Assembly (NCBI GenBank): GCA_030278955.1
Contig: JAOANR010000015.1
Coordinates: 38,658,487-38,722,486 of the forward strand
Direction of reading: 5' to 3'
From: Hygrophila difformis
Taxonomy: Eukaryota; Streptophyta; Magnoliopsida; Lamiales; Acanthaceae
DNA length: 64,000 nucleotides
The notes beneath the pieces are model-generated. The model was not told the origin of the DNA, did no database searches, and saw nothing but the letters and a program-made list of their open reading frames with translations. Position 1 is the stretch's first letter. Every line of letters begins with the position of its first letter. Shown one piece after another: positions 8,396-64,000 of this stretch. Made by a program: the position numbers and the translations under genes.

Positions 8396-8399
8396 AATA

Positions 8400-14142: not shown

Positions 14143-14143
14143 G

Positions 14144-33251: not shown

Positions 33252-35042
33252 TATAATACTCCCTCGTCTCACGAAGTTTCGCAACTATTTTTTTTTGGAG
33301 TGTCCCACGATGTATGGCCATTTTTTATTTTTCAATAAATTAAACTAATATAAGTTTCATTAAAATCTTAATTGTTCTCAAATTCATTAAAAGTGTTCAC
33401 TTTTACTATTCTGCACAAATTTTAATGTACTTTTATTTTTCTACATAATTTTCCTTGTATTTCTCTAATTTTAATAGTTCAAAATTGGTACAAAATAATC
33501 ATGTAAAATATATATTATGAAACTACACGATTAGACAATTCTAACAAGATCACACTTTGGTGTGTGGAATATTTTCCAACACAACCCGCAGTGTACGGTT
33601 CAAGTAATAACCGGTGAAACCGGGTCGAATCCACAGGGAATAATAAATTGCTATAATTTATTAAATTTAAGTAGCGACAGAAATTAAATTGCAAATAAAG
33701 GTTTATCTAAATTCCTAAAATTGCAATTAAAATAAAACAATAAAAAGTTCCAATGAATGAACAAGAGAGAGGATTGATTTATGCACTAGATGATGAATAG
33801 GGATCCCTAGATCTTTCAATTGTTAACAAACTTTGCAATTGCATATAAAAATCCAATTTTAATTAATTAATATGCCTACTTAGAATTATCACAATTCAGA
33901 AACCTCCCGGTTTTAATGACATGCAATTCCTCCGGCTAGTGATTATCCTAAGTTTGGTTCTAACAATTTTGGCTCTTTTTCAAGTTACCAATTTTTAGAA
34001 TTAATTCGTTCAATTATTTTTGTTTAAGTATTTTTCAACCACTTAAATAATATAAAACCCTAGTTCGGATCTCCTTTCAGTCTCACAAAACAAACATAAG
34101 AATTGAACAAATTAACATATAATTAAAGAAATTCATAAAACAAAAGCAAAAATCAACAATGTCTCGATCTAGGTTTCCCCAAACGATGGGTATAGCCTAG
34201 CACAATGTCACAAGAACACAAAAGAATATTAAAAGAAAACGTAGTCTGTGACAGAATTGGTGAAGAAATTCCGGTGTAGATCTCCACTGGATTGCCTTCA
34301 ACTTGCTCTTCTCTTTTCCCAGATGATGGATGAAAAAGATATGGAAGTATTATGAGATTATTGAATGATTCGGAACCCCTCAATTGGTTTGAAGTCGTGT
34401 TATTTATAGACCAGTTGCAGAAGATATGAATCAACCAGAAGATTTGCACGATATCCCAAGATTCAACAAGATTTGGGCATCCAGCACTATGGCACGCTTT
34501 TTGTTCGGATTATGAATGAGAAAAATTTGGACAGTAAGATGTTTAGATGGGGAACGAAATTCTGAGCGTTTTGATAGGTGGAACTCCCAAATCGGCTAAG
34601 AAACGAGCTATTTATGGCCCAAAACGCAAAATCCAAAAATGCAGGTGCGGGGAGCGCGCGGTATCCGCGTGGTGTGGGCGAAAAGCGCGCCACGAGCGCG
34701 CGTTATCGTCAAACGGCGCGCTCTCTGCGCGCTCGACCTTCGCACCGCGCCACCAGCGCGCGTTTCGGACTGTTTTCTCCATTTTTCTTCAGTTTTCCGA
34801 GTTTTAGAGCTCCAATTGACTTCTTCTTGGTCCCTTTAGCCCTTGGCTTGCTAAAAACACCAAAAAATATGCAATCTAAACACAAAATACATTAAAATGC
34901 ATAGAATCATGGAATGAGATCACAATTTTACATTTTTATTCAAAATCATTGTTTTTAGCAACTAATTCCATCATTTCCACCAATTAAACCTTTAATTCAT
35001 TATTTAAACACAAGTAAATGTCGCACTTTGTGCAAGACATCA

Positions 35043-38914: not shown

Positions 38915-41689
38915 AAACTAGAGCCTGAAACAACAGAAAATCAGGGAGTGAGTGAAAATAAAAATACAAAAAAGAAAAAAAGAAAATAAGGAAGAAACTG
39001 CGAAAACTCAATAAGCTATAGCAAAAATCACCGTTCCCCGACAACGGCGCTAAAAACTTGGTGTGTGGAATATTTTCCAACACAACCCGCAGTGTACGGT
39101 CCAAGTAATAATCGGTGAAACCGGGTCGAATCCACAGGGAATAATGAATTGCTATAATTTATTAAATTTAAGTAGCGACGGAAATTAAATTGCAAATAAA
39201 GTTGGTTTATCTAAATTCCTAAAATTGCAATTAAAATAAAACAATAAAGAGTTCCAATGAATGAACAAGAGAGAGAGGATTGATTTATGCACTAGATGAT
39301 GAATGGGGATCCCTAGATCTTTCAATTGTTGACAAACTTTGCAATTGCATATAAAAATCCAATTTTTAATTAATTAATATGCCTACTTAGAATTATCACA
39401 ATTTAGAAACCTCCCGGTTTTAATGACATGCAATTCCTCCGGCTAGTGATTATCCTAAATTTGGTTCTAACAATTTTGGCTCTTTTTCAAGTTACCAATT
39501 TTTAGAATTAATTCGTTCAATTATTCTTGTTTAAGTATTTTTCAACCACTTAAATAATATAAAGACCTAGTTCGGATCTCCTTTCGGTCTCACCAAACAA
39601 ACATAAGAATTGAACAAATTAACATATAATTAACGAAATTTATAAAACAAAAGCAAAAATCAACAATGTCTCGATCTAGGTTTCCCCAAACGATGGGTTT
39701 AGCCTAGCATAATGTCACAAGAACACAAAAGAATATTAAAAGAAAACATAGTCTGTGACAGAATTGGTGAAGAAATTCCGGTGTAGATCTCCACTGGATT
39801 GCCTTCAACTTGCTCTTCTCTTTTCCCATATGACGGATGAAAAAGATATGGAAGTATTATGAGATTATTGAATGATTCGGAACTCCTCAATTGGCTTGAA
39901 GTCGTGTTATTTATAGACCAGTTGCAGAAGATCTGAATCAACCAGAAGATTTGCACGATATCCCAAGATTCAACAAGATTTGGGCATCCAGCACTATGGA
40001 ACGCTTTTTGTCCGGATTATGAATGAGAAAAATTTGGAGAGTAAGATATTTAGACGGAGAACGAAATTCTGAGCATTTTGATAGGTGGAACTCCCAAATC
40101 GGCCAAGAAACGAGCTATTTATGCCCAAAACGCGAAATCCAAAAATGCAGGTGCGGGGAGCGCGCGGTATCCGCGCGGTCTGGGCGAAAAGTGCGCCACT
40201 AGCGCGCGTTATCGTCAACGGCGCGCTCTCTGCGCGCTCGACCCTCGCACCGCGCCACCAGCGCGCGTTTCGGACTGTTTTCTCCAGTTTTCTTTAGTTT
40301 TCCGAGTCATGACTTCTTCTTGGTCCCTTTAGCCCTTGGCTTTCTAAAAACACCCAAAAATATGCAATCTCAATACAAAATACATTAAAATGCATAGAAT
40401 AATGGAATGAGATCACAATTTTACATTTTTATTAAAAATCATTATTTTTAGCAATTAATTCCATCATTTCCACCAATTAAACTTTAACTCATTATTTAAA
40501 CACAAGTAAATGTCGCACTTTGTGCAAGACATCACACTTGAATATTTTTCTCTAATTATATCATTTTACATAATATTAAATCAAAGTTAAACAATAAATA
40601 TTATTAAAATTTATTATAATCTTAAACACAAATAACTACACTACTTTAATTACTAAACCCCACTACCTATATTATCATGCCCAAAAGAAATGGACCAAAT
40701 TTCACGGGAGTATCACTCATGAAATAATGAGGACTTTGTCTCACCAGTTTTGTCCCATTCGTCCATATGAGTTAATATGGACTTTATCCTGTTCGTCCAA
40801 TGTGCAAATATCTACTTGTTCATCTTCTTTCCTCATTCACAGTAAACAATTTGATTAGGAAACCTATGAACAGTGCAAAATCACCAGTTGAACAGGCGAT
40901 TTGCCTGTTCGTTAATTTTTTATTTTATTTTACTACTCGTCAGTTGATGCGAGTACTACTGTACATGATTTTTTTTCTTTTAATGTAATCGCCTGTTCAA
41001 CAGGCGATCACTCAATAAAAAATATTTTTTTTTCAGTCGTCTGTTGAACAGGCGATTTGGTATTATTTTGGGAATGAAATAATTTATCTACATTATTTTA
41101 ATAATTAAGCCGCAGAAGAACTCACAAACAAGAGCATGTTGCAACTAGGCAAAAAAGATAAGTGTCGTTTTTCCTGTGTTGTTTTGCATTTATTATAAAC
41201 GTGGTCGGGGAGGAGGGTCCAGTTATGTGTTAAATATAAGAGATTCTGCATATGCATACGCGTTGAATTTTCGCTTAAAAGTGTTAAATTATCACTCAAA
41301 AGTATCAAATTTATATTTACAACAACAATTAGTTAATTTTGAAAAAAATTATTCGTATTTTTAAGTCATAATTCAGCTCTTATGAATAAAAAATTATAAT
41401 TCAGCTCTTATGAATATCAATTCAGTATGTTTATCTGTTTATCCAGAATCACCATACAAACCACTTCACAGAAAGTAACAGGTGGTCCAGATTATCACCG
41501 GGTCCCCTTTAAATTCATTTTCTGTACATCTTTCATTCTTATCCTCTATGGGGGAATGATCAATTGTATGATATGAAGTCTAGGCCAAACTCCAATGTAG
41601 GCACGTGTGGCTCTCTTTATTATATACCCCATTTATAGGACTCTTATGAATAAATTTTATATGTCTATACCTCGACCAATCATATATAT

Positions 41690-44488: not shown

Positions 44489-47400
44489 CTCCCCCTTAGT
44501 GCAAACGTGCCGCTGACAACACCAAGAGCTTCACGGAATTCATCAAACTTTGCTTTAGCAAGCGGTTTAGTAAAGATATCCGCGACTTGTTCTTCACTTT
44601 GAACCTTGAGTAGCTCGACCTCTCCGTTGAGAACCTTTTCCCAAACAAAATGATGATGGACTTCAATGTGTTTTGTGCGAGCATGGAACACTGGATTGTC
44701 AGCAAGCTTCATGGCACTCTCATTATCGCAATACATAGGAATTGGTTTGTTAGAGGGTGAATAAACTTCTTGAACAAGGCGTTTCAGCCACACCTTCTTG
44801 AGCAGCCATAGTAGCGGCCATATACTCTGCTTCACAGTGGGAAAGAGCCACAGAATTTTGCTTTTTACTACACCATGAAATTGCAGCAGATCCTAAGGTA
44901 AAACAATACCCTATTGTGGAGCGCCGATCATTAACATCACCCGCCCAATTAGCATCAACAAAACCACTTAGAGAAACTTTTCCAGATTCCTTGTACATCA
45001 ATCCATATTCCAGAGTTCCTTTTACATAACGTAAGACTCTCTTTGCAGCAACCAAATGGCTGTCACATGGTTGATCCATAAATTGAGAAATGACTCCAAC
45101 TGAATATGCAATGTCCGGCCTTATAATAGTCAGGTAGAATAAGCTACCAACAATTTGTCGAAAAACCTTCGGATCCGCCTGTAACTTGCCTTCAAATCTG
45201 ACCAACTTCAGACCAGGTTCCATAGGAGTATTCATTATTTTCGAATCTTCCAAACGAAAACGTTTTAGTAAACTTGCTGCATAACTTTTTTGAATCACAA
45301 AGTAGCCATCAGATTTATCAATTTCCAGGCCAAGAAAACACTTAGCTTCACCTAAACTTTTCATCTCAAAACGAATGGACAATGAATCACGAAGAGAGTT
45401 AATTTCAACCTCATTGTTTCCAGTTATGATCATGCCATCCACATATAACAGAAGTATAATGCATAAGGTAGATGTTTTCTTGACAAACAAGCTTGGATCA
45501 GCATCAGAGGGTGTAAAACCACAATAAGTAAGATATTGAGCGATCTTACCAAACCATGCACGCGGAGCTTGTTTGATGCCATACAACGCCTTCTTGAGTC
45601 GACACATATAATTTGGAAATTCCTTGGAGACAAAACCAGGGGGCTGTTGCATATAAATGTCACGATCAAGCTCCCCATAAAGGAATGCATTTTTAACATC
45701 TAATTGCCACAATTTCCAGCCTTCCTTTGCTACCACTGAAATAATTATCCGAAGCGTGACCATTCGAGCAACAGGGCTAAAGGTTTCCTCGTAATCTTGA
45801 TTGTATTTTTGAGAAAAACCACGAGCCACGAGACGAGCCTTAAACCTGTCAATTTTGCCATTAGGTTTCTTTTTCAACTTGTAAACCCATTTACAAGTAA
45901 TTGGATCAACACCCTTCGGTTTGGGAACAAGTTCCCAAGTATCATTCTTTATCAGGGCAGAAAATTCCTCTTTCACTGCATCTTCCCATTGAGAAATTTC
46001 TTTAGCCTCATGGAAATTTTACGGCTCATCACCACTGAAGAAATCAACATTGAAACAAGATAAAACTGAAAAGTGATTCAACTAAACTTCATAATCAGTG
46101 AGATAGTGTGGTTGTCTCCTTTCTTGATTGGATTTCCGCAAAAAATTTTCAGGAACAACATTAGTTTGGTTGTCACCTGCCAAAATAACTTCCTGATGTG
46201 ATGACTCAACAAGAGTAGGGGACTCATCACTACCTCCTGGAAATGTACCTGAAACTCCCTCATTCAATGACTCATTATTTTCGTCAGATAATACATCAGG
46301 GAAGATTAGTACAACATCTGTGGTTTGAGCTCCATCTTTATCAAACCCGAATGATGATATTTCATCGAAAACCACATCCCGGGATACCAAAACCTTCTTT
46401 GTTTGAGGATCCATGCATCTCCACCCTTTTCGATGTGTATCATAACCAACGGAAATACAACATCTGGCTTTCGGATCAAGTTTTGATCGTTTATTCTTCA
46501 TTATATGAACATAACAAATGGATCCAAAAAATTGAAAATAACTTACATCAGGTTTCTGGCGATACAACCGCTCAAATGGAGAAAATTCTTTCCCAGGCCA
46601 TGGAGGTAGTCGATTTACTACATGACATGCAGTATGAAATGCAGCAGCCCACAATTCCGCTGGCAAATTTTTCGAATGTATCCAAGACAAAGTGACCGAC
46701 ATTAGGTGTGCTAGCTTTCGTTCCGCAACTCCATTCTGTTGTGGGGTATCCGGGTAAGTCATTTTTCGTTGAATACAATGTTGCCTGCAATAATCCATGA
46801 TTTCAATGGACAAAAATTCTCCACCATTATCTGTATGTAAGCATTTGATTTGAACTCCCAACTCTTTCTCTACAGGACTCTAGAACTCATCAAATTTAGA
46901 GAAAGCTTCACTTTTATACTCCATAAAATATACCCAAATGAAGCGCGAGAAATCATCCACAATTACCATGACATAGCGGAAGCCATTGTAGCTCGAGATT
47001 TTTGTCGGCCCCAAAATATCAGCATAAAGTAATTGTAATGGAGTAGATGTTCTACTCTTAGATCTGGAGAAAGGTAACCGATGTGATTTACCATATTGGC
47101 AACCTGGACAAAATTCATCTGAAACTTCTTTAAAAACTGGAATCCCACCAATAAGTTGCTTCCTGGAGATTTGCTGCAGCAATTGATAACCAACATGACC
47201 CAAGCAAGCATGCCAAAGACTAAGACCTTCAGCTTGACTTGTTCTCTTAATATATGCATCACTAGCAGATAATACATGTAATGACTCTTTCCTTATTCCA
47301 ACAGAATGGACATCAGCATCAATATGTTTAACACTTGAAAGAATCTTCACATCTTTTGGGCCGAATAGGACATACCTTCCCGTGTTAGTTATCTGTGCAG

Positions 47401-48053: not shown

Positions 48054-51000
48054 TGATAATGGCCAGAAATGACCATTATTTTCAATCCATTTCCGTGTCT
48101 GAAACGGGCATTTGATCGCATTCCGGTCTTATATTAAATAAGAAAGCAGTAGAATTGGACTGATTTATGCATAATTGTAAAAATATTGAGCTGGTATGAA
48201 AAATGCATAAATATGTAATTTTACTACATATTTATGTTAGAAAAATCCAAAAACATGAGAAAAAGAAAAGAAAAGAAAAAGGAATGAAAAAGATGGGCAA
48301 AAGAATAAACAAGCCCACAAAAATACAAAAAGATGGGAAAAGATAGAAAAGCCCACAAAAATAATAACTTCGGCCCATCTGGCCCATTCAGCTCTGTCTG
48401 GGAACACCTGTCGAGGAACCCTGGTCGAGGACCATGGTTCCGCGACACAGGAGAGATTCGCGACCAGCATGCGAAATGAAGAAGAAGACCAGTCTGGGAA
48501 CTCCAGTCGAGGAACCCTGGTCGAGGACCATGGTTCCGCGACACGAACAAGCTCCGCGCCACCAAAACCTTGGAGGCCAAGCCACAGACCAGTCGAGGAA
48601 CCCCTGTCGCGGTCCATGCTTCCGCGACACGGATACGGATAAAGACATAAGACCCAGTCGAGAAGCCTTGCCACATGCAACCCAGTTCCGCGACAAAGTT
48701 GTGATGTGTGTGATGTCTTGAGACACAGTGGGCCTCAGATCAAGCCCATGGGCCTAGGGCTCCACTCCTATAAATATGAGGAGACCCCCATGAGCTCAGT
48801 AGTGTGGAGAATTCATTCTTGAAGACAAATTGGAGAGCTGAGTTCTTAGGTAGCTTTAGCTTAGTTTTATTCTTTTTTTTTGTATTATTTAATTCTTGCA
48901 CCAGTTTAGTTTAGATTAGTTACATTTAATGTTGGTTTTACTGTTCCAGTTGCTAGGTAGCCAGCTTTTCATCTTGTTTTTCCTTCTAAACTTTTGATCT
49001 AGGGTTTGAAATGTCCAAAATCATGGATATTATCAAACTCACTAAATAATATGGGAAAATATTCACCAAATGTGTCCCAAATCATGAAATGGGTCTCACA
49101 CCCCATGGATTCTTTGCTTTAATTTTCCTTTTTGGGTTCTTTTGACCCCCATTTCTCCTATTGTGCTTCCTGTTGTTATTTTCATGGATAATGGTATGGA
49201 TGTGTGTGATCGATCCCTAGAGTAGGATGTTGCCTTATTTTAATTATTGTTCTAGATAGGTTCATTTCGGTTCAAGCATGTTCTTGTTATTTTAAATATT
49301 GTTTGGTTGCTTTTGGTTTAGAATAGCTTTTAAATCCGAAATGGGTTGAGATCACACTTTTTGCATGCTACTGTTCAACTTTGCTTTTACTGACTTGGGT
49401 CCTGAACCACCCTTGTCGCCAACCGACCCCTGTCGACAAGCCATGTTTGTCGACAGGAGGTTTTTCCGCGACATGGATGTCTAAGGACACTTGTCTCCAT
49501 TATCTGAAAATTCCTGGTCGCTAAACACCTAGTCGCGGACCCACGGTCCTCGACTCAACCATGCTTAGCGATCAGGAGCCAAACTCTTGTTATTTTCACC
49601 TGGATGGCTCTTGTCGCGGAACACCCTAGTCGTGGACCCATGGTCCGCGACTCAACCTTTACTCCAAGACAGGAAATTATGCCATGCACATTTATTTTGA
49701 AAACCCCAGTCGCTAAACATCCTGTCGCGGAGCCATGCTCTGCGACACAATTCCAGGATAGCGACTGGGAACCAAAATACTTAGAAATTTCCAGAGGTAA
49801 CTCTGTGTCGCTAAACACCTGTCGCGGACCCACGGTCCGCGACACAACTTTTACTTAGTGACACAAGGTGAAACTCTGCCCAAATCTCTGAAAACCTGTC
49901 GTCCCAAAATTCTGATCTTCTACCTTCCACTATATTGCAAACACTCACATCTGAATCCCACGGATTAAGATGTAATACTCTAGAATTGCAGTATAAGGCG
50001 TTATGCTGCCAAAATTTTGATTCTCCATTTCCACCCATTAATTAATTGAACCCTCTAGTCATTAATGATTCATGAGTCTAATTACCAATAATTAAATCAC
50101 TAATTGTTGTGATTAGAGGATCTTTGTTCAATTGCCATTAAAATAATTTTCTATAAACAAAATCATGATGTCTTAAACAGATAATCCGGACTGTAATCAC
50201 TTATGGTAGGAGGGATTATTTAAGCCATCAATTATGGATTAATTCCATCACCTCGTATGAGAAACCAATGTCTCTCATGCAGGTTCCTCTCTTTATTTCA
50301 CTCTATTTTGTCTTTTGTGTATTGTGTGTAACAATTAGTAAAGACTACATCAGACTAATGTTGGCGGGTATTCCCTCATGGATAACTAGCTCGTATTCTG
50401 GGTATTAATTACTAAGAGTTATTTTGCATGATCTGGATAGCAATCTGTGGAAGTCTTGGCGGTTCGTCCATCCGGGGCTATAATAGCTGCTCAACTGATT
50501 CCCATCAAGATACAGTTTTATTTTTCTTATCTTAATTTCCAAACCCAAATTCCAATCTGTAGTGAAACTCTGTCACTGTCTGTCAACATTAGCTGATAAG
50601 TACTACAGAGAGGAAGCGTGTAGGTTTTTATCCGAATTCACAGACAGTGGAGACCCAACTGGCATTGACACTACCATTATAGGGTCTAAGCTGTCTAAAT
50701 TCGCTTCATCCGAATGATTGGGAAATTGGACAGTAGATGTTTACAGTCCACCAGATTATTCTGCCATTACTTCGGTCTCCCGACCACTTCATTTCTGTGT
50801 TTCACCTTCTGTCTAGACCCGCATTTATATTTTGGGTCAATCGATTTTACACTTCCATATATCCTTATGCATGCTATTATTATGTATTATTGTGGTCTGC
50901 AATATTTTGGGATCCTTCCCATGGACAACAGAAGTCTAGATCTTAAATAGATGTTGCGTATTAAATTTCCGACAAAAATTCCTTTGTAAATCCGGATCTG

Positions 51001-52794
51001 AGTAAGGGATAAATTCTTCAGTTATGACTAATTCATATTCTACCGGGGGTTGATTTTGGGAGATTAGAAGCAGAGTCAGCGATTAGGTCTCATCTAGACT
51101 GAAAGGATCTGTGTTTTAATTGAGAGTCTAGTACCTGTTTAGGGAATGATTTTCAAATCCATTATTTTCCAAAATTGCTGTTTGTTAGGAATCTAAGATT
51201 AAATATTACACCGAGATGGGGTCCACTTGGACTCAAATATAGTGTAGTAAATAATTTTAGAGGAACATCATCCAGGCCTTGGTTATTTTCTAAGATAGGG
51301 TTGAGTTTTCTCTCAACTGTTATCCTCTTCTGCCAAAGCCTATTTTTGAGTCCTGAGTGAGTGCATCCGGAACAAACTAATTTATTAGTTCGTTTCATTA
51401 GTTTGTATCTCATAATCACCCGGAAGGAAGTGAACACACAAGTGGTTCACCAAGAGCCGGGAATTCTTGATCCATACCCCTTCATCCTGATGGGGAGCTG
51501 TCTTTTACTACCAGGGTCAGACCTTCAAAACCTCCGAGTGATAGGTTTTAAATGCTTTCTTTAACGCTTTCTTTTACCGCTTTCTTTTAAATGCTTTCAT
51601 TAGAGGTCACTCGGTTGTATTGAGAGTTGCGTAACTGCTACTAGGATTGATAGTTAAGGAATAGTTTAGGGCTTGATTAGAATCTTTGGGTGTGACATAG
51701 GGGAATGATAGCAGTACTTGGCATTTCAATAAATGATTTGTCAGGTGTTGCTTGTCCACCACAGATGAAGTAACACACCCAGGCCAGGGCAGTTACGAAT
51801 CTGTGGTATCTTAGAATCTGCGGTCTTAAGAACATGTAAACTCACACTGTAAGTACCTATCTGTTAAAGGGAAAGCTGTACTGAGAGCATGAGAATTAGC
51901 TATCTGATAGGATTATCCCAAACCAAGATCTGTGTATAAAAATGGAAGTTTAATACTGCTATATCTAAATCTTGTCCAAATTTCATTCTTTTCTTCCTGT
52001 CCCTTCTGTCTGCATTATGATTCAGCTTCATAGCTAGCATAATGTAAATTTTCACTGCTTTCTCAAATAGTGTTTATCGCATTTTTAGAGTAACTTTACC
52101 CGCTTTCTAGAATAGACTTATTTGCTTGTAGAATAGATTTAAACGCTTTTATAGTTTAGTTTAAATTCATACCAGTAGTTGTTAATCACTTTTCAAACCA
52201 ATTGGAGCAATACGAATGGAAAATCTAGTAAAACGACGTGGGCCCTGCTTCTATCGCACATCCTCTAGTGAACGATCCGGTCTTACTATAAATTACTGCA
52301 ATTTTTGACACCGTGCGCTTTCGGGGGCACAGTTTCTTAACACGAGTAATAAAAACGTGACAACCTATAAATATATCCCTAATCCCAACTTCGCCATCAT
52401 AAATTGGTTTCATTAAATAAAATTGAAAACCAGGATTATTGTTTTTCAGAAAATACTCATATAATGGGAAATGTGTTAAAAGTTTCATGGCAAAGGATCC
52501 TCATGACGCGAAACTATGATAAATTTCATGATGTTTATGGCCGGGGACCTTCAGTGTGACAGACTGAAGGTCAAGATTACACTATTTGTCCCGGCTGCAC
52601 CGTGAAAGTTGTCAAAAGTTTCATGCCAGGGAGGTCCATAGCGCCGTTTGAAATCAAAGTTTCCCACATGAGTAATAAAAAAGTGAAATATATCCTTAAC
52701 CCCTTACTCGTGAATCATAACTCTTTTCTTTTAATAAATCCAAACCTGGGATATTTTAGAAAATACTCGTGTGCGGAAATTGTCAAAAGTTTCA
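48054..52794 (+). mobile_element. 5' LTR of the giant gypsy element (about 4.7 kb)
   Basis: The start is fixed by the match with 63383 onward; the end is inferred from TTTCA|TGGCGCC at the primer-binding site. A TATA box, CTATAAATA, is at 48769-48776. Upstream and downstream of it lie clusters of GTCGCGG...CCGCGAC palindromes (48420-48690, 49420-49860). The stretch 50000-52300 holds no gene; it is AT-rich with scattered weak internal repetition. Only 617 bp can be confirmed against the 3' LTR, so a nested insertion within this LTR is not excluded. Confidence 0.65.
48769..48776 (+). promoter_or_regulatory. LTR promoter TATA box
   Basis: TATAAATA in a GC-richer context (ctccactcc before it, gaggagacc after), about 715 bp into the LTR and directly after a palindrome cluster. 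Confidence 0.6.
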
Positions 52795-52830
52795 TGGCGC
52801 CGTTGCCGGGGAGGATGCAGCGCCGTTTTA
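52330..52830 (+). repeat. Imperfect tandem duplication around the LTR end and primer-binding site
   Basis: The text 'gagtaataaaaa.gtga...atatatcc.taa...aaaatactc...gtyaaaagtttcatg' occurs at about 52343-52500 and 52670-52796. A third 'ttgtcaaaagtttcatgcc...agcgccgtt' is at about 52608-52650. Only the last copy has the intact primer-binding site. Confidence 0.65.
52795..52812 (+). promoter_or_regulatory. Primer-binding site, tRNA-Asp type
   Basis: TGGCGCCGTTGCCGGGGA matches the complement of the 3' end of plant tRNA-Asp, as in Athila-type elements. It directly follows the CA at 52793-52794. Confidence 0.85.
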
Positions 52831-52952
52831 TTAGAGAATTACCTTCCTTATTGCTCCTAGTTAGCTTATACGTATAAATATAAATATTCACCCCAAAACC
52901 GATTCTAACCTGGGGAATGTGCAGGTACTGTCATAGCTAAGACCTCTGTTCT

Positions 52953-54371
52953 ATGCAAAAGAGAAAGGAGACTCCAGCCGAGATCCCGTTCAATGCAGAA
53001 ATCGAGAAAACAGCTCGTCGTCTGAGGGCGGAAGCTAGACAAAGAAAGGAACGGGAAAGACAGGCTCTACTCTCTCCAAGCACAAGCAGTGACATCTCAG
53101 ACATGGCAGATAACCATGGCAATCCCCTAAATATTCCACCTAACCCACCACTCCAAAACATCCAAGAGGACCCAGAAGACGTTGACGTTGAGAACTTGGA
53201 GGATCTTCCCCCTCAGGTCATTCAAGGAGGTGAGAACCCCCCAAATCTCGACCAGCAACCCTTCGAGGTGCCTCCACCCAACCCAAACCACCAAAACCCC
53301 CAAAACAACCCACTTAACCAAAACAATCCAAATAACCAAAATTTTCAGAATCCTCAATTTCCAAACCCCCAGTTTAACCAAAACCAGAATCATCCTAACC
53401 CTAACGATTTCAATGATCCCGGAAATTACTATCCAAATCAGAACTTTTACCCACAGCAATACCAAGGAGGGCCAGGGAACAATCAACAGGCAGCCGCAGC
53501 TGACTATATGCAGCCCATTCTAGAACCATATTTGAATATTCTTGGACAAGCTCCATTCTTGGCCAGGAATTTCGAATTGAAACCGGCACTCATCAATCTT
53601 GTTCAGAGCAACCAGTTCGCAGGAGCAAATCATGAAGATCCGCATGACCATTTGCAAACATTCTTGGAGCTATGTGACACCATTAAGAACCAGAATGTAT
53701 CTGCTAATACCATTCGATTGAGGCAGTTTCCTTTCTCTCTGACTAGCGGGGCGAGAACATGGTACAAATCACTGCCCGTGAATCAGAAGTCTGCATGGGA
53801 GGACGTTATCAGAAACTTCTTGACAAAGTACTTCCCGGAGTCCAAGGTGGATGAATGCCGCTCTAAGATTGCGGAATTCAAGATGAAATCAGACGAGTCC
53901 CTGTATGATGCAAAGGAACGGTTCTTCAACTTGCTCAGGAAATGCCCCCAGCATGGTATCCATGAGTGGGAGAAATTGAGAAAGTTTTATAGCGGTTTGA
54001 CCCCAGCATGGAAGAACATGCTTGATGCTGCCGGTGGTCAACACCTGCTATACATTCCCATGGACCAAGCTTGGGCCAAGATTGAAGCAATGAGTGTAAA
54101 CAGAACTGTACTTTCTGATGATGTTAATTCCCCTCCCCCTCGTGGTTTATGTGCTGTAGGTACAGTAGGGAAATCTGAACTGGACAAACTGAAAGACCAA
54201 GTGGTCGTCTTGGCCTTGAATCAGGAAGCTGGGAGCTCTACACAGGCTCAAAATGCTGAAGCTGTTTGCGGGACGTGCCAAGGCCCGCATTCTACTGAAT
54301 CCTGTCAGCAAGTGGCAAACGAAAGCTGTAACTATGCAGGTGGATTCCAAAACCGGCATCCGAACCTTTAA
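52953..54371 (+). pseudogene. gag: Athila-like Gag
   Basis: The ATG at 52953 opens a 472-aa frame. It begins with a basic N-terminus (KTARRLRAEARQRKERERQ) and a long N/P/Q-rich spacer (residues 50-190). The capsid domain follows (about 200-390: FELKPALINLVQSNQFAG, FPFSLTSGARTWYKSL, FLTKYFPESKVDECR, ESLYDAKERFFNLLRKCPQH). A zinc-knuckle-like CGTCQGPHSTESC lies near residue 445. A single in-frame TAA at 54369-54371 separates it from the rest; the same frame continues directly afterwards, so Gag and protease were once one reading frame, as in other plant gypsy elements. Confidence 0.85.
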
Positions 54372-55466
54372 TATTCCAACAACAATGCTTTGAATTCCCA
54401 CTTGTTGACCCAGCCTCAACAGTTCAACCAACCAAGGCCCCAGCATTTTAACCCAGGTTTTCAGCCTCAGATTCTAGCCAGACCACCCCAAAACCAAAAT
54501 TTCCAAAACTTTCAACAGCCACAAAATCAGTTTGCCCCAAATCAGAATCAGTTTGTTCAAAACCAAGGTCAGAACCAGAATTGGAACCAGAACCAGCAGA
54601 AACCCCCTTCCAGATTAGAGACCCTCATGACTGACTTCATTACCAGTCAAAAGGAAATCAACACTCAGTTGCAGTGCTCTATCCGGAATGTGGAGACGCA
54701 GGTCACACAAATGGCCAAGGAAATGCAGAAAAGAGACCAAGGAACCCTACCCAGCACTGCTGAGAAAAATCCTCAGTGTAAGGCCATCACACTGAAGTTT
54801 GGTAGAGTTTTGGAAGGACCCAAGGGCAAGGAGAAACTGGTACAAGGAAATGAACTAGAAAGTGACATTGAGGAGAATGAAAAGGAAGCCGAGAAAGAGA
54901 CAGCCGATCTGCAGACTGACGCTGCACCTGAAACGGCAGAAAAAGATAAGGGTACAGGTGGAGGTACAACTTCCTTCCCTTTACCACAAAAACAAGTAGA
55001 TAATAACAAGTACATGCCTAGGATTCCTTATCCTGCACGTCTTAAAAATAAGGAACATGATCTTAAATTCAAGAAATTTCTGGAACGATTAAAGTCTGTA
55101 GAGATAACCATTCCTCTCACAGAAATGATTTCCGAAATGCCCATCTATGCTAAGTTCTTGAAAGAATTAATTTTAGGAAAAAGGCAGGTCGAGCAAGAGG
55201 AGGTGATTATTCTCAACAGCACATGCAGTGCCATCGTTCAGAGGAGATTTCCTGAAAAGAAAGAGGACCCCGGATGTTGCACACTTCCAGTACAATTCGG
55301 AAAGGCCAAAGTGAGTATGGGGCTTTGTGATCTAGGATCGAGCATCAATGTGATGCCACTAGCTATGGCAATCCGCCTTAAGCTTGGAGAGATTCAACCA
55401 ATCAAGATGAGACTGCAGCTCGCAGACAGATCAATCACTCAGCCCGTATGAATCCTTAAGGATGTT
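54372..55466 (+). pseudogene. Gag tail and protease, first part
   Basis: In the same frame as gag there is another Q/N/F-rich stretch, then a coiled, charged linker (KGKEKLVQGNELESDIEENE). The pre-protease helix follows (FLERLKSVEITIPLTEMISE), and then the aspartic protease with LCDLGSSINVMPLAMAIRL. TGA at 55449-55451 (GTATGAATC, where related proteases have GIL) interrupts it. Confidence 0.8.
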
Positions 55467-57152
55467 GTGGTTAAAACCGGCCAGGTTCTCTTCCCGGTTG
55501 ACTTCATTATCCTCGACATTGAAGAAGATTCTGAAATGCCACTTATCCTTGGACGCCCATTCCTGGCCACTGGTGGTGCACTAATTGATGCTAAATCTGG
55601 AAAGGTCACATTGAGGGTCGATGGCGAGGAAATCACCTTTGATATGGAGCAGCTGCAGAAGTTTCCAAATGAAGGAGCTTGTTCCATGTTTTCTGTAATA
55701 GATAGTGGAGAGAAAATTGATTGTGAGGAGAGAGAGCTTGACTCTGGACTTGATCATAAAATGATGCTGGATGAGATTTCAAAGCAGGTACTGAAGCCTG
55801 CTGGCGTGGAGCACAAAGGATGCAAGGCCGTTCACTTTGCCGATCCCGAAACAGGGGATTTGGAGGAGTTTGACGGCACAGACTTCCATGACGACGCCGA
55901 CCAAGAGGAGGCGGATCCTGTACTGATGCAGGGTCCGGAAGGTAAAATTGATCTTCTCCCATCTAATTCTCGCAAATTACTCCCTTCCGTTGAATGCCCA
56001 CCAGAGCTTGAACTTAAAACATTACCCGATCATCTCAAGTACGCGTTTCTCGCAGAACATAAAAAATTACATGTGATTGTTTCGGCTAAGCTCTCCCAAG
56101 AGCAAGAAAGTGCTCTGGTGGTCGTTCTTAAAAATTATGTGCGTGCAATCGGTTGGACCATTTCTGATATCAAAGGAATAAGCCCTTCTCTTTGTATGCA
56201 CAGGATTTTAATGGAGGAGAATTTCAAGGCCTCTCGCCAGCCCCAACGAAGATTGAACCCACCCATGCAAGAAGTGGTAAGAAAGGAAGTGATCAAGCTG
56301 TTAGACGCCGGTATTATATACCCGATTTCTGATAGCAAATGGTTCAGCCCTGTGCAGGTTGTTCCGAAGCGGGGTGGGATGTGCATTACGCAGAATAAAC
56401 AAGGGGAGGAAATTGCCACGCGCCCAGTCACCGGATGGAGAGTCTGCATAGACTACCGGAAGTTGAACGAGGCAACTCGCAAGGACCATTTCCCTTTACC
56501 TTTTATCGATCAAATGTTGGAACGATTGGCGGGAAGGGCATTTTATTGTTTTTTAGATGGTTATTCTGGATACAATCAAATAGTGATCGCCAGTGAGGAT
56601 CACGAAAAAACTACCTTTACATGCCCCTATGGCACTTTTGCCTATAGGCGCATGCCTTTTGGTCTTTGCAATGCACCTGCTACTTTTCAAAGATGCATGA
56701 TGTCTATATTCTCTGAATTTATCGAAAAATGCATTGAGGTCTTCATGGATGACTTCTCTGTATATGGAGATACGTTTGATGAATGTTTGACTAATCTTGC
56801 TAAGATTTTAAAGAGGTGTGAGGACACTAACCTTGTTTTAAATTGGGAAAAGTGCCATTTTATGGTCACTGAGGGCATAGTGTTAGGTCATCGGATTTCT
56901 CGTGCAGGCATTGAAGTTGATCCAGCCAAAGTTTCCATCATTTCCAATCTCCCTATCCCTAACTCGATCAAAGCAGTTAGGAGCTTCTTAGGGCATGCCG
57001 GTTTTTACCGGAGATTCATTAAGGATTTCTCTAAAATTGTCAAGCCGCTCACTAACTTGCTTTGTAAAGAAAATCCCTTCTTAATAAATGAAGCGTGTGT
57101 CCAAGCCTTTGACACGCTCAAGAAGATGTTGGTTTCTGCACCGATAGTGTAG
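55467..57152 (+). pseudogene. pol: Protease C-terminus and reverse transcriptase
   Basis: Still the same frame. The protease continues (PVDFIILDIEEDSEMPLILG). The RT follows: WTISDIKGISPSLCMHRI, WRVCIDYRKLNEATRKDHFP, FLDGYSGYNQI (first catalytic Asp, residue about 363), YRRMPFGLCNAPATFQRCM, and VFMDDFSVYG at 56740-56769 with both catalytic aspartates intact. The RT connection (FLGHAGFYRRFIKDFSKI) follows. It ends at TAG 57150-57152 in PIV-stop-PPDW, where a Gln codon is expected (CAG to TAG). Confidence 0.9.
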
Positions 57153-58906
57153 CCACCCGATTGGTCAATACCTTTCGAGGTAATGTGCGATGCTAGTGGT
57201 CTCGCCGTGGGCGCAGTTCTTGGACAACATAAGGATGGGAGACATTGCGTAATTCATTACGCAAGTCATGCCCTGAATGAGGCCCAAGTTAACTACACCA
57301 CAACAGAGAAAGAGATGTATGCTGTAGTCTTCGCGTTTGACAAGTTCAGACAGTATCTGATAGGTACGAAGACCATAGTATACACCGATCATACAGCATT
57401 GAGATACTTGTTTAGCAAGCAAGATGCAAAACCTCGATTAATCAGGTGGGTACTTCTGTTGCAAGAATTCGACATCATAATAAAAGATAGGCGAGGTCGA
57501 GATAATAGTGCTGCTGACCACTTATCTCGATTAGATAATGATAAAAAGGAAAAAGCCGTTAATGAAGAGTTTCCGGACGAACAGTTGTTCGCGTTGCATC
57601 TGCATAATCAAGCTTGTCCATGGTTTTCCGACATCGCTAACTTCTTGGCGTGCGGAATAACCCCACAGTTTTCGAACTATCATCAGAAGAATAAGTTCAA
57701 ACGAGATGTATTAAGTTACTTCTGGGAAGAACCTTATCTCTTCAAACACTGCGCCGATTCAATAATCAGGCGATGTGTGACCGAGCATGAAGCCTATCAA
57801 ATTGTCAGAAAATGCCATGAATCAGAATATGGAGGTCACCATGGTCCCGCTCGAACGGCCCACAAGGTCCTCGAATGTGGATTTTATTGGCCTCACATCT
57901 ATGAGGATTGCAGGACATTTGTGAAAGGTTGCGACAAATGCCAAAGATTAGGAAACCTCTCCAAGAGGGATGAGATGCCGCAAAAGGGAATTCTCACACT
58001 TGAGATTTTCGATGTATGGGGCATTGACTTCATGGGACCGTTTCCGCCATCTGGTGGAAACTACTATATCTTGGTAGCTGTTGATTACGTGTCCAAATGG
58101 GTCTAGGCTGTCGCATTACCGACCAATGATGGTAGCCAAGTCATCAAGTTCCTCAAGAACAACATTTTCAGTCGATTTGGCATACCTAGGGTGGTGATAT
58201 CTGATGGAGGAACACACTTTATTAATAAAGCTTTTGAAACTTTAATGAATAAAAATGGAATCCTCCATAAGATAGGCACGCCTTATCATCCTCAGACTAG
58301 TGGTCAAGTCGAAGTATCCAATCGCGAGATCAAACACATACTCGAAGCCACTGTTGGGATAACCCGTAAGGATTGGGCACGAAGCTCAATGATGCTCTAT
58401 GGGCATATCGCAAAGCATTTAAGACTCCCATTGGGATGTCCCCTTACAGACTTGTCTTCGGAAAAGCCTGTCATTTGCCTGTAGAGTTAGAGCATAAAGC
58501 TTACTGGGCCGTTAAGACGCTTAACTTCGATCCGAAAGTTGCTCAGAGCAAACGTAAGTTGGATCTCAATGAAATTGAGGAAATACGAGCGCTAGCTTAT
58601 CAAAGCTCTCGAATTTATAAGGAGCGGACCCAGAAGTTGCACGATCGCAGGATTAAGCCTAAGCATTTTTATGTTGGTCAAAATGTGTTATTATTCAATT
58701 TTAAGTTGAAGCTGTTCCCTGGGAAGCTTAAATCCAGATGGGAAGGACCACATGAAGTGCTGGAAGTGTTCCAAAATGGAGCTGTCAGGATCCGAACTGA
58801 CAAGGGCAACATAGTGGTGAATGGACAACGATTGAAGGAGTACATCGGACAGTTCGATCCAGAAAAAGAAAGCCAAACAGTGGCAGACCCGGCTTACACC
58901 CAATAA
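57153..58906 (+). pseudogene. pol: RNase H and integrase
   Basis: RNase [57 protein letters not shown]. Integrase zinc finger: [10 protein letters not shown]...CDKCQRLG. Integrase core: [11 protein letters not shown], then TAG at 58104-58106 (KWV-stop-AVALP, Glu expected), VVISDGGTHFINKAF, and HPQTSGQVEVSNREIK; the D,D,E residues are all present. A frameshift near 58375-58390 moves the rest ([40 protein letters not shown]) to another frame, ending TAA 58904-58906. Apart from three stops (with the one at 57150) and the frameshift the sequence is well conserved. Confidence 0.9.
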
Positions 58907-59004
58907 GAAACAGCATTAAAAGCATAAAAATTTCAGTTTACATATATGTATAATCTTATAGTATACTTTTCTCATAACAAGAAAGTACCCAAAAATCAAT
59001 TGAA

Positions 59005-59085
59005 CATTTAGAGTACTAAGACTCTAAATGTGAGGATGTTGATATTTGGAGAAAATCTAATGCGTTTTATTTATCTGTCTTGCAG
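59005..59085 (+). promoter_or_regulatory. Hairpin, polypurine-like motif and splice-acceptor-like site (module 1)
   Basis: CATTTAGAGT (59005-59014) and ACTCTAAATG (59021-59030) form a 10-bp stem, followed directly by TGAGGATGTTG, the same text that precedes the 3' LTR at 63383. A pyrimidine-rich tract ending TTGCAG (59085) comes 45 bp later. A second such module is at 60970-61074. It may mark the original 3' end of the element. Confidence 0.55.
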
Positions 59086-59399
59086 AAAGTTCGGAACCAT
59101 CAAAAAGAGGAACAGTGGAGCAACACGGAAAACCAGGTTCTTGGTTGGATTAATTCCATGAATCTAAGAAAATATTTCCGGAAATTAAAGCAATTTAAAT
59201 CCGGAATAATTTTTGCAAACAAATGGAATTAACCCAACCTAATTTATGCAAGTAGATTTTACTTTAATTTCAGCCCAGTGCGTTTTTGAATAATTGGACT
59301 GAATTTATTCAGGCCCAAATCAAATAAAATGAACTCAAGCCCAACATCACACTCGGGCCCAGTTCACAAAAATTTGAAAATTTCAAAATTTGTGTCACG

Positions 59400-59700
59400 G
59401 AACCAACAACTGTGTCGCGGAGCAATGGTTCCGCGACCAGGCCTAGATTCCGCGACACAGTCGCACATGTTCCCCCTCTCGATGTCGCGGAACATCTGTC
59501 GCGGTCCATGGGTCCGCGACCGACCCTTCATTCCGCGACACCATTCCCCGTTGACTTTTTCCATTCCAGAACTTGGTCGCGAAACTCCTGTCGCAGACCA
59601 TGGTTCCGCGACCAGACTCAGATTCCTCGACTCGTGTAATGTCGCCATGCCCTGGTCGAAGAACCCTGTTCTGCGACATGGTCTGGTTCCCGCGACCAGT
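59400..59700 (+). repeat. Cluster of GTCGCGG/CCGCGAC palindromes upstream of the F-box promoter
   Basis: Several units of the form GTCGCGG-N9-CCGCGAC occur (59412, 59496, 59589 and partial ones between). The spacer is often a variant of accatggtt. The same units occur in the LTR at 48420-48690, 49600-49860 and 63740-63965, in each case near a TATA box. Confidence 0.8.
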
Positions 59701-59708
59701 GTTTTTAG

Positions 59709-59717
59709 TATTTATAA
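59709..59717 (+). promoter_or_regulatory. Predicted TATA box of the F-box gene
   Basis: TATTTATAA lies about 150 bp before the ATG at 59870, followed by a run of 16 C (59718-59733) and a pyrimidine-rich leader. This is the standard arrangement for a plant polymerase II promoter; activity is inferred. Confidence 0.55.
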
Positions 59718-59869
59718 CCCCCCCCCCCCCCCCTCACCTCATTTCCCTGCATACACATCAGTTTCTTTCTAACTCCATCTTTTCACCTTCCTCTGCTCCC
59801 TCTTCTCTCTACCGAACGAACACCACTGTGTTCTTCGCACCCAATACTCTCCAAAACCAAGGGGAAACT

Positions 59870-61720
59870 ATGGCCAGATTTTTCAGACTTGCTCCAAACT
59901 TGGGACCGATGCCTCCCTCTCCCCCAAGAGTGGAGTAAGATGGCCCATTTTTTTTTCTCACCCATTCTTTCTTTTCCCCCGTCCATAACCCCTTCGGTTC
60001 TTCCTTGTTCTTTTGTCTCTATTTTGATTTTTGAGAAGCATATTGCGATTTGTGTGTGCACCCTCATTTTAGTTTTTGAGATTTTGAGTGCTCTCGGTTT
60101 CGAGCAGTGTTTTGAGATCTTTTTGGACTCTTTCATAAACCCATTTTCAAAACTGTCAAGAGTAAAATTTTGGGAAGAGTTTAAAACTTGAGAAAGTAAA
60201 CTGATGAATGTTGGGGTGTTGTTGCGAGCACCATAATATTATTGGTTTTTATCCTTGAGCTTAGGGTTTGTGTTTGATTCTTCTTTCCTGTGTAGTTAGT
60301 GTTTTTGAAATAAATGTTTCTGGAGTGTTATCCGGGAACATTAAAATGGAAAGATCTTTTTGGCATATTTGTTCCCACATGTTACAATCTTGTGGGAATA
60401 AATGTTTGTTTGTTTATGGAAACATAGTACAAACACCCAATGAGAAACTTCCACTCTTTAATAAAGGTGACCTTTTGGAAAAAGACAAAAAGAGTTAATA
60501 GATTTAATATTTGACTTGTGTTCTTTTTGTTCCCAATGGAACTGCAGTGTGAGTAAATAGCAGTATGTTTGTCACCCAACTGCTGTCTTTTTCAAAAATC
60601 CAAATTGGGACCACTCACATCCCACTTTCCTTAAATAAAACAAGTCAAACCTTTAAAATTGAAAATAGTGTTTGCAAATTCTTGGGGACGTTTCAACTGT
60701 TCAATGCAGTCCAAACAAACCGAGAATAGCAAATCCATTACGCCACGTCTCCATTGCACATTCCAAAATTCGAGCATTTCATCTTCATCCGTCCATCTCA
60801 TTCCATTTTCAGCAAGTGTCTCGGACTTGTTTAATAACATTGGAAAATCAAACTTTCGGACCCAATGGTCCATTAAAAATACATAGGGGCCCAATGACCC
60901 CTATCATTTCATAAAAATCTATTTTACCCATGCTTTAAATCAAAATTCAAGTCAAGAACTTAATAATTTCACATTTAGAGCAAAACTCTAAATGTGAGGA
61001 TGTTGGTTGCTGAACTTGAATAAATTCTAAGAAAATATCATAAAAGTTGGATTCATCCCTTCTTATCTTTTCAGGATCCCGGACCCAGTGCCCGGAGGGA
61101 CCCAGCTGCTGGATTTGCCACTGGAATTAGTAGGGGAAATCCTCTCCCGAATCGGAGAGGATGACATCAAGAAAGTGTTCACAGTTAGGGAAACTTGTAC
61201 AAAACTGAGAGACGCAGGTGATCTCACCATTGTCTACAAACGGTGCGAGCTGGAGACCTCAAATGTGAAAATCTGGCAACAACACGTCCAAGAAGAAAAG
61301 GAAGAATTTCTGCAGAGGTGTATGGAAGCAGAAAACTTCAATCTCCAGATCATCCCAGCAATACAAGCATTCGTAGACGAGGACGAAGAGCAAGCATGCA
61401 AGCTGCTACGGCCAGGCATCGAAGACAATCATAAAGCATCAATCCTCACCCGCGGACTGATGCTCATAAGCAAGATGGATGAAGGCCAGGTCAATCAGGG
61501 GATCGCAATGATCGAGAGGATGGTGACCAATCGAGAGGTTTTCACCTACACATCCACCAACACCCTCGCGTGGATGGCAAACAATCATGCTCCCTACTTG
61601 TTTGCAGGACAACCACCCCGAGTTTTCTGCAGAAGGAGGCATGCACCCCTGAGAAACCGCGACTGGTGCCTGCGCTGTGAGCTGACCAGCTACGTCCACC
61701 GGCTCCGATACATGTTCTGA
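59870..61720 (+). CDS. F-box protein gene carried by the retrotransposon, two exons
   Basis: F-box proteins link substrates to SCF ubiquitin ligases through Skp1. Exon 1 (59870-59934) encodes MARFFRLAPNLGPMPPSPPR plus V and two bases. The intron runs 59935-61074 (GTAAGA...CTTATCTTTTCAG). Exon 2 (61075-61720) completes the split GAG codon in phase. The spliced product is 236 aa with no interruption. The F-box (about residues 34-80) reads LLDLPLELVGEILSRIGEDD...VRETCTKLRDAG. It is followed by a helical segment (EEFLQRCMEAENFNLQI, ACKLLRPGI, ILTRGLMLISKMDEGQ) like the Sel1-like half of the plant F-box group typified by At2g35280/At1g67623, and a C-terminal Cys/His segment (CRRRH...DWCLRCELTSY). 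It lies between integrase and the 3' LTR in the same orientation. Exon 2 has no ATG before the F-box, so the exon 1 assignment matters; splicing is predicted only. Confidence 0.7.
60970..61074 (+). promoter_or_regulatory. Hairpin, polypurine-like motif and splice acceptor (module 2)
   Basis: CACATTTAGAG (60970-60980) and CTCTAAATGTG (60986-60996) form a perfect 11-bp stem with a 5-nt loop, then AGGATGTTG. The acceptor CTTCTTATCTTTTCAG follows at 61059-61074. It is a diverged second copy of the module at 59005-59085, and its acceptor is the one used in the F-box gene model. Confidence 0.6.
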
Positions 61721-63368
61721 GGAAAGGAAGAAGGAGAGATGAATCCTACTATGCTCTAGCTCTTTTTGAGCCCTAGTATCGGCAGTATGTAAGGGATTTC
61801 CTCTTTTGTATGCAGGTTTGTATCAACTGCATAGGAATCCCTTAAAATTATTGTACTTTACCGCTTTCCACAAAAATTGAACTCAAGTTTGAGATCTGCA
61901 ATAATCTTTATTTGCTTCCTTTGAAAAGATGTCTGACAGTCCAAGATGAATAAGTGACTGTCAGGCCAAAAATATGCTGTTGACATGCTCTGTATGTCAG
62001 CAGTGCCTCTTTACTGCTTTAAATTAAATAACCAGCAAAAATATGCATAAACCTGTTCTGAATTCACATGTTGAATTTAGGCTTATGATTAAATTTTCAA
62101 ACTTTTAAATTGGGATAACATAATTGAGAGCATGCATGACATGAATTCCTAAGGTTTTGAGCTATAAAAATTTAATGATGCGATCAGCTTATTGGGTAAT
62201 AAATCTGCATGTTAGAGATTTAGATTGAATAAATTGTTAGAATTAAGCTTTGATTAAATTTGAGAATATTGTATGACATGAATCAACCCAACCTTGTGAG
62301 ATTCGAGCCATGAGTCATTTTTACTCATTCTTTTCTTTGATGTGTGACTCATTTTGATTAAAGGAAACTAGAACTTGCAATTGGGACCGATTCAAGACCA
62401 TGCCATATTCCCGAAATCGAGCATATGTTCGAGGCACTTAGAAAACCCAAATTTTTGGCCTTCGTTTGAATTCCAAACCAAAAATATTTTCCCTTTAGGA
62501 TTAACCACTTTGAGCCTTAAGCCTAATTTTTCTTTGAAACCCTCTATATTTTTCCTAACCTACAAAAAGACCCAAAAAAAATTCAAACCCAAGTGTGCAA
62601 GAATAAATTTTATCAAGGCATTAAAATTATGATCATCAATTCATCAGATTGGTATTCAATAAACCGATTCAAAAAAAAATATATTTTGTTGAGATCCATT
62701 CAACATCAAATAAATTGCAAATAACAAAGCAAATTAGACATAGTCTAATGTCATGCAATAGAAAAGAAAAGCAAAAGAAAGAAAAAATATTGATGATCAT
62801 AAACTTCAAATAAATGTGCCAAGTTATGATAAAATAAATTCCTGCCACTTCTTAAGCCAATAATTTTCCTTTCATACCAAATGTTACAACCGTACGCCCC
62901 ATTACAACCCTTAAATAAGACCTCGAGATCTCAATTTGAGGAAATGAGCCGGTGGCGAGTTGGTCTGATTGCAAGCTTATGGGATAATTTAATTGAATTG
63001 ATTTGGAGCGTTCATGATTAAACCCCAATTGAGAGTGAGTGAATTTTCCGATTTTCCTATATGTGAGGTTCTGTTTCATGAATTGCGAAATGTTCATGTC
63101 ATCCCTTAATTCTAATTTTTAATCTCTGCATCTTTCAAACATGATATTCATGAAGGGTTGATAATAATGTTGATTTGTAGGCCCGATGTAGTGAGCAAGT
63201 ATCATTTCATTAAACACTGCAATCAAGAGAACTTAATACTTGTAGTTTTTTATTATCTTATCCCAATCCAAAAAGAATGTGATCTATGAAGCCACGAAAA
63301 TGAATTGAATATGTAGAGTCCGTGTTCTTAGGAACATTGACTCTGACTGCTCGGGGACGATCAGTATT
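61721..63368 (+). other. Non-coding 3' region of the giant element
   Basis: The first 150 bp may be the F-box 3' UTR. The remainder is AT-rich and contains text typical of the 3' ends of Athila-like elements (e.g. 'cgccccattacaaccctta' at 62896) and, just before the polypurine tract, 'tgctcggggacgatcag'. I see no env-like ORF. Confidence 0.6.
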
Positions 63369-63382
63369 AAATGTGAGGATGT
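63369..63382 (+). promoter_or_regulatory. Polypurine tract before the 3' LTR
   Basis: AAATGTGAGGATGT directly precedes the LTR start TGATAATGG. The purine run is short but the position is exact. Confidence 0.7.
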
Positions 63383-64000
63383 TGATAATGGCCAGAAATG
63401 ACCATTATTTTCAATCCATTTCCGTGTCTGAAACGGGCATTTGATCGCATTCCGGTCTTATATTAAATAAGAAAGCAGTAGAATTGGACTGATTTATGCA
63501 TAATTGTAAAAATATTGAGCTGGTATGAAAAATGCATAAATATGTAATTTTACTACATATTTATGTTAGAAAAATCCAAAAACATGAGAAAAAGAAAAGA
63601 AAAGAAAAAGGAATGAAAAAGATGGGCAAAAAGAATAAACAAGCCCACAAAAATACAAAAAGATGGGAAAAGATAGAAAAGCCCACAAAAATAATAACTT
63701 CGGCCCATCTGGCCCATTCAGCTCTGTCTGGGAACACCTGTCGAGGAACCCTGGTCGAGGACCATGGTTCCGCGACACAGGAGAGATTCGCGACCAGCAT
63801 GCGAAATGAAGAAGAAGACCAATCTGGGAACTCCAGTCGAGGAACCCTGGTCGAGGACCATGGTTCCGCGACACGAACAAGCTCCGCGCCACCAAAACCT
63901 TGGAGGCCAAGCCACAGACCAGTCGAGGAACCCCTGTCGCGGTCCATGCTTCCGCGACACGGATACGGATAAAGACACAAGACCCAGTCGAGAAGCCTTG
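63383..64000 (+). mobile_element. 3' LTR of the giant gypsy element (first 618 bp; cut by window edge)
   Basis: It matches 48054-48670 with one 1-bp insertion (A-run near 63630) and two substitutions (near 63822 and 63978). The palindrome cluster is present; the TATA box would lie just beyond the edge. Confidence 0.95.

Follow-up and report, generated by a model that had tools for sequence, protein, structure and literature searches.

An intron-bearing F-box-type frame between pol and the 3' LTR of an Athila-like retrotransposon from Hygrophila difformis: possible stepwise capture at the 3' end

Introduction

How does a plant F-box gene with an intron come to lie inside a long terminal repeat (LTR) retrotransposon, and does the state of its reading frame say anything about its use there? 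The question is raised by a 64,000-nt stretch of Hygrophila difformis DNA (contig JAOANR010000015.1; here called the window, to which all coordinates refer). The window is plant-type DNA rich in transposable elements, and at its right end an Athila-like Ty3/gypsy element carries a two-exon F-box-type frame between its integrase and its 3' LTR. The original prediction read this frame as a whole host gene, with promoter and intron, that had been kept in better condition than its carrier. Our analysis supports the frame itself, which is open, in phase across its intron, of plant F-box type and placed at the element's env position. Its most likely origin is a captured exon lying behind a fossil LTR, rather than an entire gene taken from the host together with a promoter.

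Results

An F-box/TPR_27 frame between integrase and the 3' LTR

Integrase ends at 58906 and the 3' LTR begins at 63383. Between them, on the plus strand, lies a two-exon frame of 236 open codons followed by a stop, as predicted originally. The predicted exon 1 (59870–59934) comprises 21 full codons and the first two bases of a GAG codon; this codon is split by a 1140-nt intron (59935–61074, GC content 0.35) with the borders GTAAG...TTTTCAG and is completed, in phase, by exon 2 (61075–61720, stop at 61718–61720).

By the measures used, exon 2 looks coding. Its frame is open from 61031, and 20,000 mononucleotide shuffles of the exon yielded no stop-free sequence. Its GC content is 0.51, against 0.34–0.35 in the 3' spacer and the intron, and GC at third codon positions is 0.60, against 0.45–0.48 in four gag-pol pieces, which fits a captured gene. 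Pfam profiles matched an F-box-like motif and, adjoining it downstream, TPR_27: for the full frame, TPR_27 reached 32.6 bits, above its cut-off of 27, and F-box, with 17.2 bits, fell short of its cut-off of 20.5; for exon 2 alone the scores were 32.9 and 17.5 bits. The frame 59555–59934, which holds exon 1, had no Pfam match. Fold prediction of exon 2 from the single sequence reached a predicted local distance difference test score of 40 and was uninformative. The same order, an F-box-like motif followed by TPR_27, is found in plant F-box proteins with PF23310 (TPR_27), which we take to include the At2g35280-like family. The exon-2 protein differs from these in being borne by a retrotransposon and in an F-box score below cut-off.

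By position, the frame belongs with the sense open reading frames (ORFs) between pol and the 3' LTR (the aORF-3S or eORF-3'F class). No env-like or Athila ORF-1 family appeared in Pfam at E ≤1, where only TPR_27, F-box and DUF5902 were listed; in this profile comparison the frame thus lacked the similarity to env-like proteins that characterizes plant env-like genes. At 236 codons it falls just short of the 250-codon limit of a survey of extra ORFs (PMC6317226).

The gene is probably spliced. In splice-site scoring with rounded plant splice frequencies, the acceptor at 61074 ranked first of the 149 AGs in 58900–61720. The model is less secure on other points: the donor at 59935 is weak (0.44 bits, rank 10 of the 139 GTs in the same interval), exon 1 is short, with just those 21 full codons, and seven combinations of ATG and donor (≥0 bits), the modelled one included, reach acceptor 61074 in phase. 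Donor 59935 serves in five of the seven; of the two that remain, one has a donor with a better score, 59137.

Three copies of the polypurine tract/LTR junction and a fossil LTR-like stretch

The motif AAATGTGAGGATGTTG has exactly three exact copies in the window, at 59026, 60990 and 63369, each with AATTGAACATTTAGAG-like sequence upstream. The last lies in module C (63303–63384, plus strand), the true pre-polypurine tract and polypurine tract (PPT) with the junction to the 3' LTR. Module A (58998–59041, plus strand) combines pre-PPT, PPT and LTR-start-like sequence with repeats D2 and D3; 20 nt of it are identical to the true 3' junction, and the pol stop lies 119 nt ahead of its motif. Module B (60965–61005, plus strand), a second internal copy of pre-PPT, PPT and LTR start, lies within the intron. 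Modules A and B are closer to each other than to C (D2: 96% vs 71%). The similarity of B to A ends at 61030, and the F-box open frame begins at 61031, so that the F-box exon and its acceptor stand directly behind module B. We read AAATGTGAGGATGTTG as a mark of element ends because it also occurs, with 2 mismatches, at the 3' LTR junction of a second element in the window.

Behind module A, a stretch resembling the U3/R part of an LTR extends over 59040–59869 (plus strand) and is the putative promoter of the F-box gene. It holds a cluster of CGCGAC-type repeats at about 59394–59700 and a TATA-like box near 59709, ~160 nt upstream of the exon 1 ATG. Measured from A, the repeat cores lie at +375 to +652, against +356 to +635 in the real LTR, and the TATA-like box at +670, against +715. 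Outside the element the repeat core occurs as isolated copies only. The cluster is 67.7% identical to that of the real LTR in its best match and 65–68% over the three best. An acceptor-like site, TTTTATTTATCTGTCTTGCAG at 59065–59085, directly behind module A, scored third best of the 149 AGs in 58900–61720.

These observations change the picture of the gene's surroundings. The proposal of a whole gene with its promoter, taken from the host, becomes unlikely, the upstream stretch carrying a copy of the element's PPT/LTR junction, its repeat cluster and an LTR-like layout. Nor is the intron purely of host origin, given that module B lies in its last ~130 nt.

The carrier element

The carrier runs on the plus strand from 48054 to beyond the window end (64000). 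Its 5' LTR (48054–52794) is ~4.7 kb long, with a probable 3' end placed by the adjoining primer binding site (PBS); the 3' LTR (63383–64000) is partial, reaching the window end after 618 nt. The PBS, TGGCGCCGTTGCCGGGGA (52795–52812, plus strand), is an exact 18-mer match; in 100 shuffles the mean was 0.01 matches at ≤3 mismatches. We take it to be of tRNA-Asp type. Degenerate repetition is apparent in the region of the LTR end and PBS (52480–52840), with AAGTTTCATG at about 52480, 52616 and 52787. In non-chromovirus elements, LTRs of up to about 5 kb are described (PMC6317226), and a tRNA-Asp primer, as in the carrier, is given for Calypso and Diaspora (PMC1142308).

The ORFs for gag, protease, reverse transcriptase (RT), RNase H (RH) and integrase (INT) occupy 52953–58906 on the plus strand. 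They are broken by four in-frame stops (54369, 55449, 57150 and 58104) and one frameshift somewhere in 58367–58484; all five disablements lie in gag-pol, and their earlier count holds. Pfam matches above cut-off were obtained for gag, RT (RVT_1), RNase H (RT_RNaseH) and the integrase H2C2 domain (Integrase_H2C2). The integrase core (rve), whose ORF is cut, stayed below threshold (14 bits vs a cut-off of 32.6), and the protease is assigned by resemblance to an element described below (L001), whose own Pfam protease match falls below cut-off. The Gypsy order RT–RNase H–integrase is found across adjacent ORFs. No Pfam match for a second RNase H was found in the carrier, where RNase H and H2C2 are 104 residues apart. 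An additional RNase H defines Tat and separates it from Athila (PMC6317226), and the carrier is therefore placed with Athila rather than Tat. Judged by its domains and PBS, the carrier belongs to the Athila/Diaspora type of Ty3/gypsy elements, and it is young. Its F-box gene is separated from the true PPT by an AT-rich, non-coding spacer (61721–63368, plus strand; GC content 0.335 over 61721–63382).

Insertion age and integrity of the frame

The two LTR ends (48054–48670 and 63383–64000; 617 and 618 nt) show three differences, namely two substitutions and one indel. Two substitutions in 617 sites correspond to an insertion age of ~0.12 million years (My), with an upper 95% limit of 0.45 My, at a substitution rate of 1.3e-8. 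Only ~1.15 substitutions are then expected in the F-box frame since insertion. Counting stops and leaving indels aside, a neutral frame would have acquired no new stop with a probability of 0.91–0.96 at the age estimate and 0.72–0.85 at the upper age limit. The rate of the carrier itself leads to a similar view: with five disablements over its 1984 codons, 0.59 would be expected in a frame of 236 codons, and none with a probability of 0.55. Since both expectations allow a stop-free neutral frame, the difference in preservation claimed between the F-box frame and its carrier is not significant and finds no support.

The four gag-pol stops, in turn, exceed the age-based expectation (P = 0.0007–0.008, or 0.05–0.31 at the upper age limit) and therefore hint, without proof, that this copy was already defective when it moved. 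A longer history can be argued, as distinct from measured, on the assumed premise that LTR-A and the present LTR were alike when the block formed: K would then be ~0.42, equivalent to ~150 substitutions in 711 nt, and the frame would have stayed free of stops without selection with a probability of 0.0045.

Searches for relatives

When the F-box protein was compared with 5.8 billion proteins, plant proteins included, none of 125 candidates matched at E ≤10; this search needs shared 5-residue words and possibly excludes the source genome, and it shows only that no close relative was found. In the same database, the integrase piece matched 6981 of 7007 candidates (best 120 listed). No F-box relatives were found in viral contigs, and plasmids gave one match only (E 0.7). 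Scanning viral contigs for the RH-INT and INT-C pieces and for the PPT motif likewise gave no match. A PDB search returned four weak pentatricopeptide repeat (PPR) matches (best E 0.012), NCBIfam gave no family, and Rfam (gathering thresholds) and tRNA scans of the window gave no match.

Other elements in the window and in bacterial assemblies

Among three Athila-like elements examined, the carrier is the one with an F-box. The second lies in the window on the minus strand (33.5–40.5 kb). Its 1.49-kb LTRs (33557–35042 and 39058–40534) are 95.3% identical and it has a PBS-like site at 39035–39052; it has diverged from the carrier and retains gag/protease and only the start of RT, its pol being truncated. 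The third is an Athila-type element found in two assemblies labelled Solirubrobacter sp. CPCC 204708 and Geminicoccus harenae CPCC 101083 (L001:1–9848 and L002:1–9030, counted once). The two copies are 99.66% identical over 9013 nt and are most likely plant contamination of both bacterial assemblies. The gag-pol ORF of L001 has 2001 uninterrupted codons, and the RT, RH-INT and INT-C pieces of the carrier align to it in the same order at 52–57%.

The window also contains copia-type pieces of other LTR elements at 44753–46018 (minus strand) and 23021–24013 (plus strand); they comprise RT (RVT_2) and an SH3-bearing integrase. A direct duplication (8299–14143 and 16045–21889; 5.85 kb, 97.9% identical) holds two ~360-nt repeat copies in each half.

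Discussion

Captured genes in plant LTR elements are known; what is new here is an F-box/TPR_27 ORF accompanied by PPT/LTR scars. Such captures are reported as common: counts of 672 for rice and 1343 for sorghum are given (PMC3726574), and in Thlaspi one LTR-gene is assigned to the F-box family (PMC8764390). Extra ORFs are described as common in plant gypsy elements, the origin of most being unknown (PMC7264820). Across 121 angiosperm genomes, a survey names 15 extra domains as frequent, and every one of them occurs in gypsy elements (PMC9289625). The word "F-box" does not occur in the main texts of PMC9289625 and PMC6317226, and the literature searched, represented mostly by titles and the beginnings of abstracts, yielded no F-box extra ORF in an Athila element.

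The carrier resembles Diaspora, Calypso and Athila4 in its RT-RH-INT order, with no room for an additional RNase H. In the envelope-less Diaspora the pol stop is placed 128 bp before the PPT (PMC1142308), much as it lies 119 nt before motif A in the carrier. The carrier then continues with ~4.3 kb of extra 3' sequence containing the F-box gene, where Diaspora has nothing and Athila and Calypso have an env-like ORF. Among the precedents found, poplar Tpb1-1 (Athila clade AIc) comes closest: it too seems to have gained DNA downstream of pol and ahead of the 3' LTR (PMC1142308). The Tpb1-1 insert, of 1479 bp with a 47-base poly(A) stretch, is read by its authors as an integrated cDNA and has no extended ORF, whereas the carrier has an open frame and an apparent intron. 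Orchid Gypsy elements with an extra ORF for a 2-oxoglutarate-dependent dioxygenase (2-ODD, AlkB-like) also hold a captured cellular domain in Ty3/gypsy, and theirs is reported to have been retained over several replication rounds (PMC9289625). Unlike the F-box carrier, of which one copy is described here, those elements have a dual RNase H (Tat-like) and a demethylase active in vitro, and are represented by 38 and 23 consensus sequences in two species, according to the same source.

For the locus as a whole, we put at about even the chance that an Athila/Diaspora-type element captured a plant F-box/TPR_27 gene as a sense extra ORF, in steps at its 3' end and behind a fossil LTR. The open frame, the strong acceptor, the three PPT/LTR-junction modules and the LTR-like stretch upstream are directly visible; from them we infer the following history. 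The ancestor would have been envelope-less and would have ended at module A, just after pol. Transcription through or out of the LTR at A may have taken in a downstream F-box exon together with its splice acceptor, and recombination with the RNA of a related element during reverse transcription would then have supplied a new PPT and LTR (C); module B may be what an intermediate step left behind. The old LTR at A would now drive a short transcript in which exons 1 and 2 are joined by splicing, and the intron would pass through transposition in genomic RNA that starts in the 5' LTR and stays unspliced. Because reverse transcription uses the unspliced genomic RNA, the intron is in principle no obstacle. 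With its pol broken, the present copy was probably mobilised in trans; for Arabidopsis it has been argued both that Athila families recombine with one another and that defective copies are moved in trans (PMC2410132).

Other accounts differ in which part of this history they dispute. The capture itself could stand while expression followed an env-like route, in which, on genomic RNA started in the 5' LTR, a leader donor is joined to acceptor 61074 and exon 1 (59870) goes unused. This is a serious rival to expression from LTR-A because leader donors outscore donor 59935 (49797 at 4.19 and 49194 at 3.48 vs 0.44 bits). That acceptor 61074 is the best of its 149 while donor 59935 is weak points the same way, as do the further acceptor-like site at 59085 behind module A and the spliced env-like transcripts reported for barley Bagy2 (PMC7264820). 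The exon-2 frame, however, has no ATG ahead of its F-box motif and would need a start codon from the leader, and the TATA-like box stands shortly before the exon 1 ATG; on balance we consider this route unlikely. The frame might also be a chance one-off, a host gene fragment captured by or inserted into a single copy and carried as a passenger without function for the element. Over so short a time since insertion a neutral frame would be expected to stay free of new stops, and the two other Athila-like elements examined show no F-box, but three PPT/LTR modules imply more than one event at the element's 3' end. The low probability of a stop-free neutral frame would speak against a one-off too, given the assumed likeness of LTR-A and the LTR at capture. 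We regard it as possible but doubtful.

A transfer of the whole 3' block (F-box, spacer, PPT-C and LTR-C) as a unit from another family already bearing the F-box ORF would make the element a recombinant. For Arabidopsis, a recombinant origin is reported for at least 4 out of 13 lineages of Athila (PMC2410132), and the mutual closeness of modules A and B relative to C is in keeping with this account; yet no such donor family was found, in searches that hardly covered plant genomes, and this too seems unlikely to us. Modules A and B might, alternatively, be functional internal polypurine tracts, comparable to the lentiviral central PPT, instead of scars of old ends. The distantly related Athila-like element L001 offers some encouragement, with a G-rich tract ~145 nt after its pol stop and 3.6 kb of contig beyond it. 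Module A, however, is followed by an LTR-like layout, which is more than a PPT alone, and the LTR-start letters are retained as well, which makes this reading distinctly improbable in our view.

Under stepwise capture, the F-box protein might act as a SKP1-binding adaptor of an SKP1–cullin–F-box (SCF) ubiquitin ligase. By analogy with polerovirus P0, the gene could even serve a mobile retrotransposon lineage as a functional accessory gene: acting as an SCF adaptor, its product would direct the host to degrade an element-limiting protein such as a silencing factor, and its intron would be removed for expression and kept in genomic RNA. We think this a long shot. F-box-like viral silencing suppressors exist; according to one abstract, the pathway shown to have a part in the degradation of AGO1 was autophagy and not the F-box route.

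What the locus offers is a readable record, in PPT/LTR-junction copies before the putative promoter, in the intron and at the true end, of how sequence past an old 3' LTR may have come to lie inside an element, which as a rule cannot be seen. If sibling elements share the insert and it proves to be under constraint, this would be a retrotransposon-encoded ubiquitin-ligase adaptor, a counter-defence gene of a kind reported from plant viruses.
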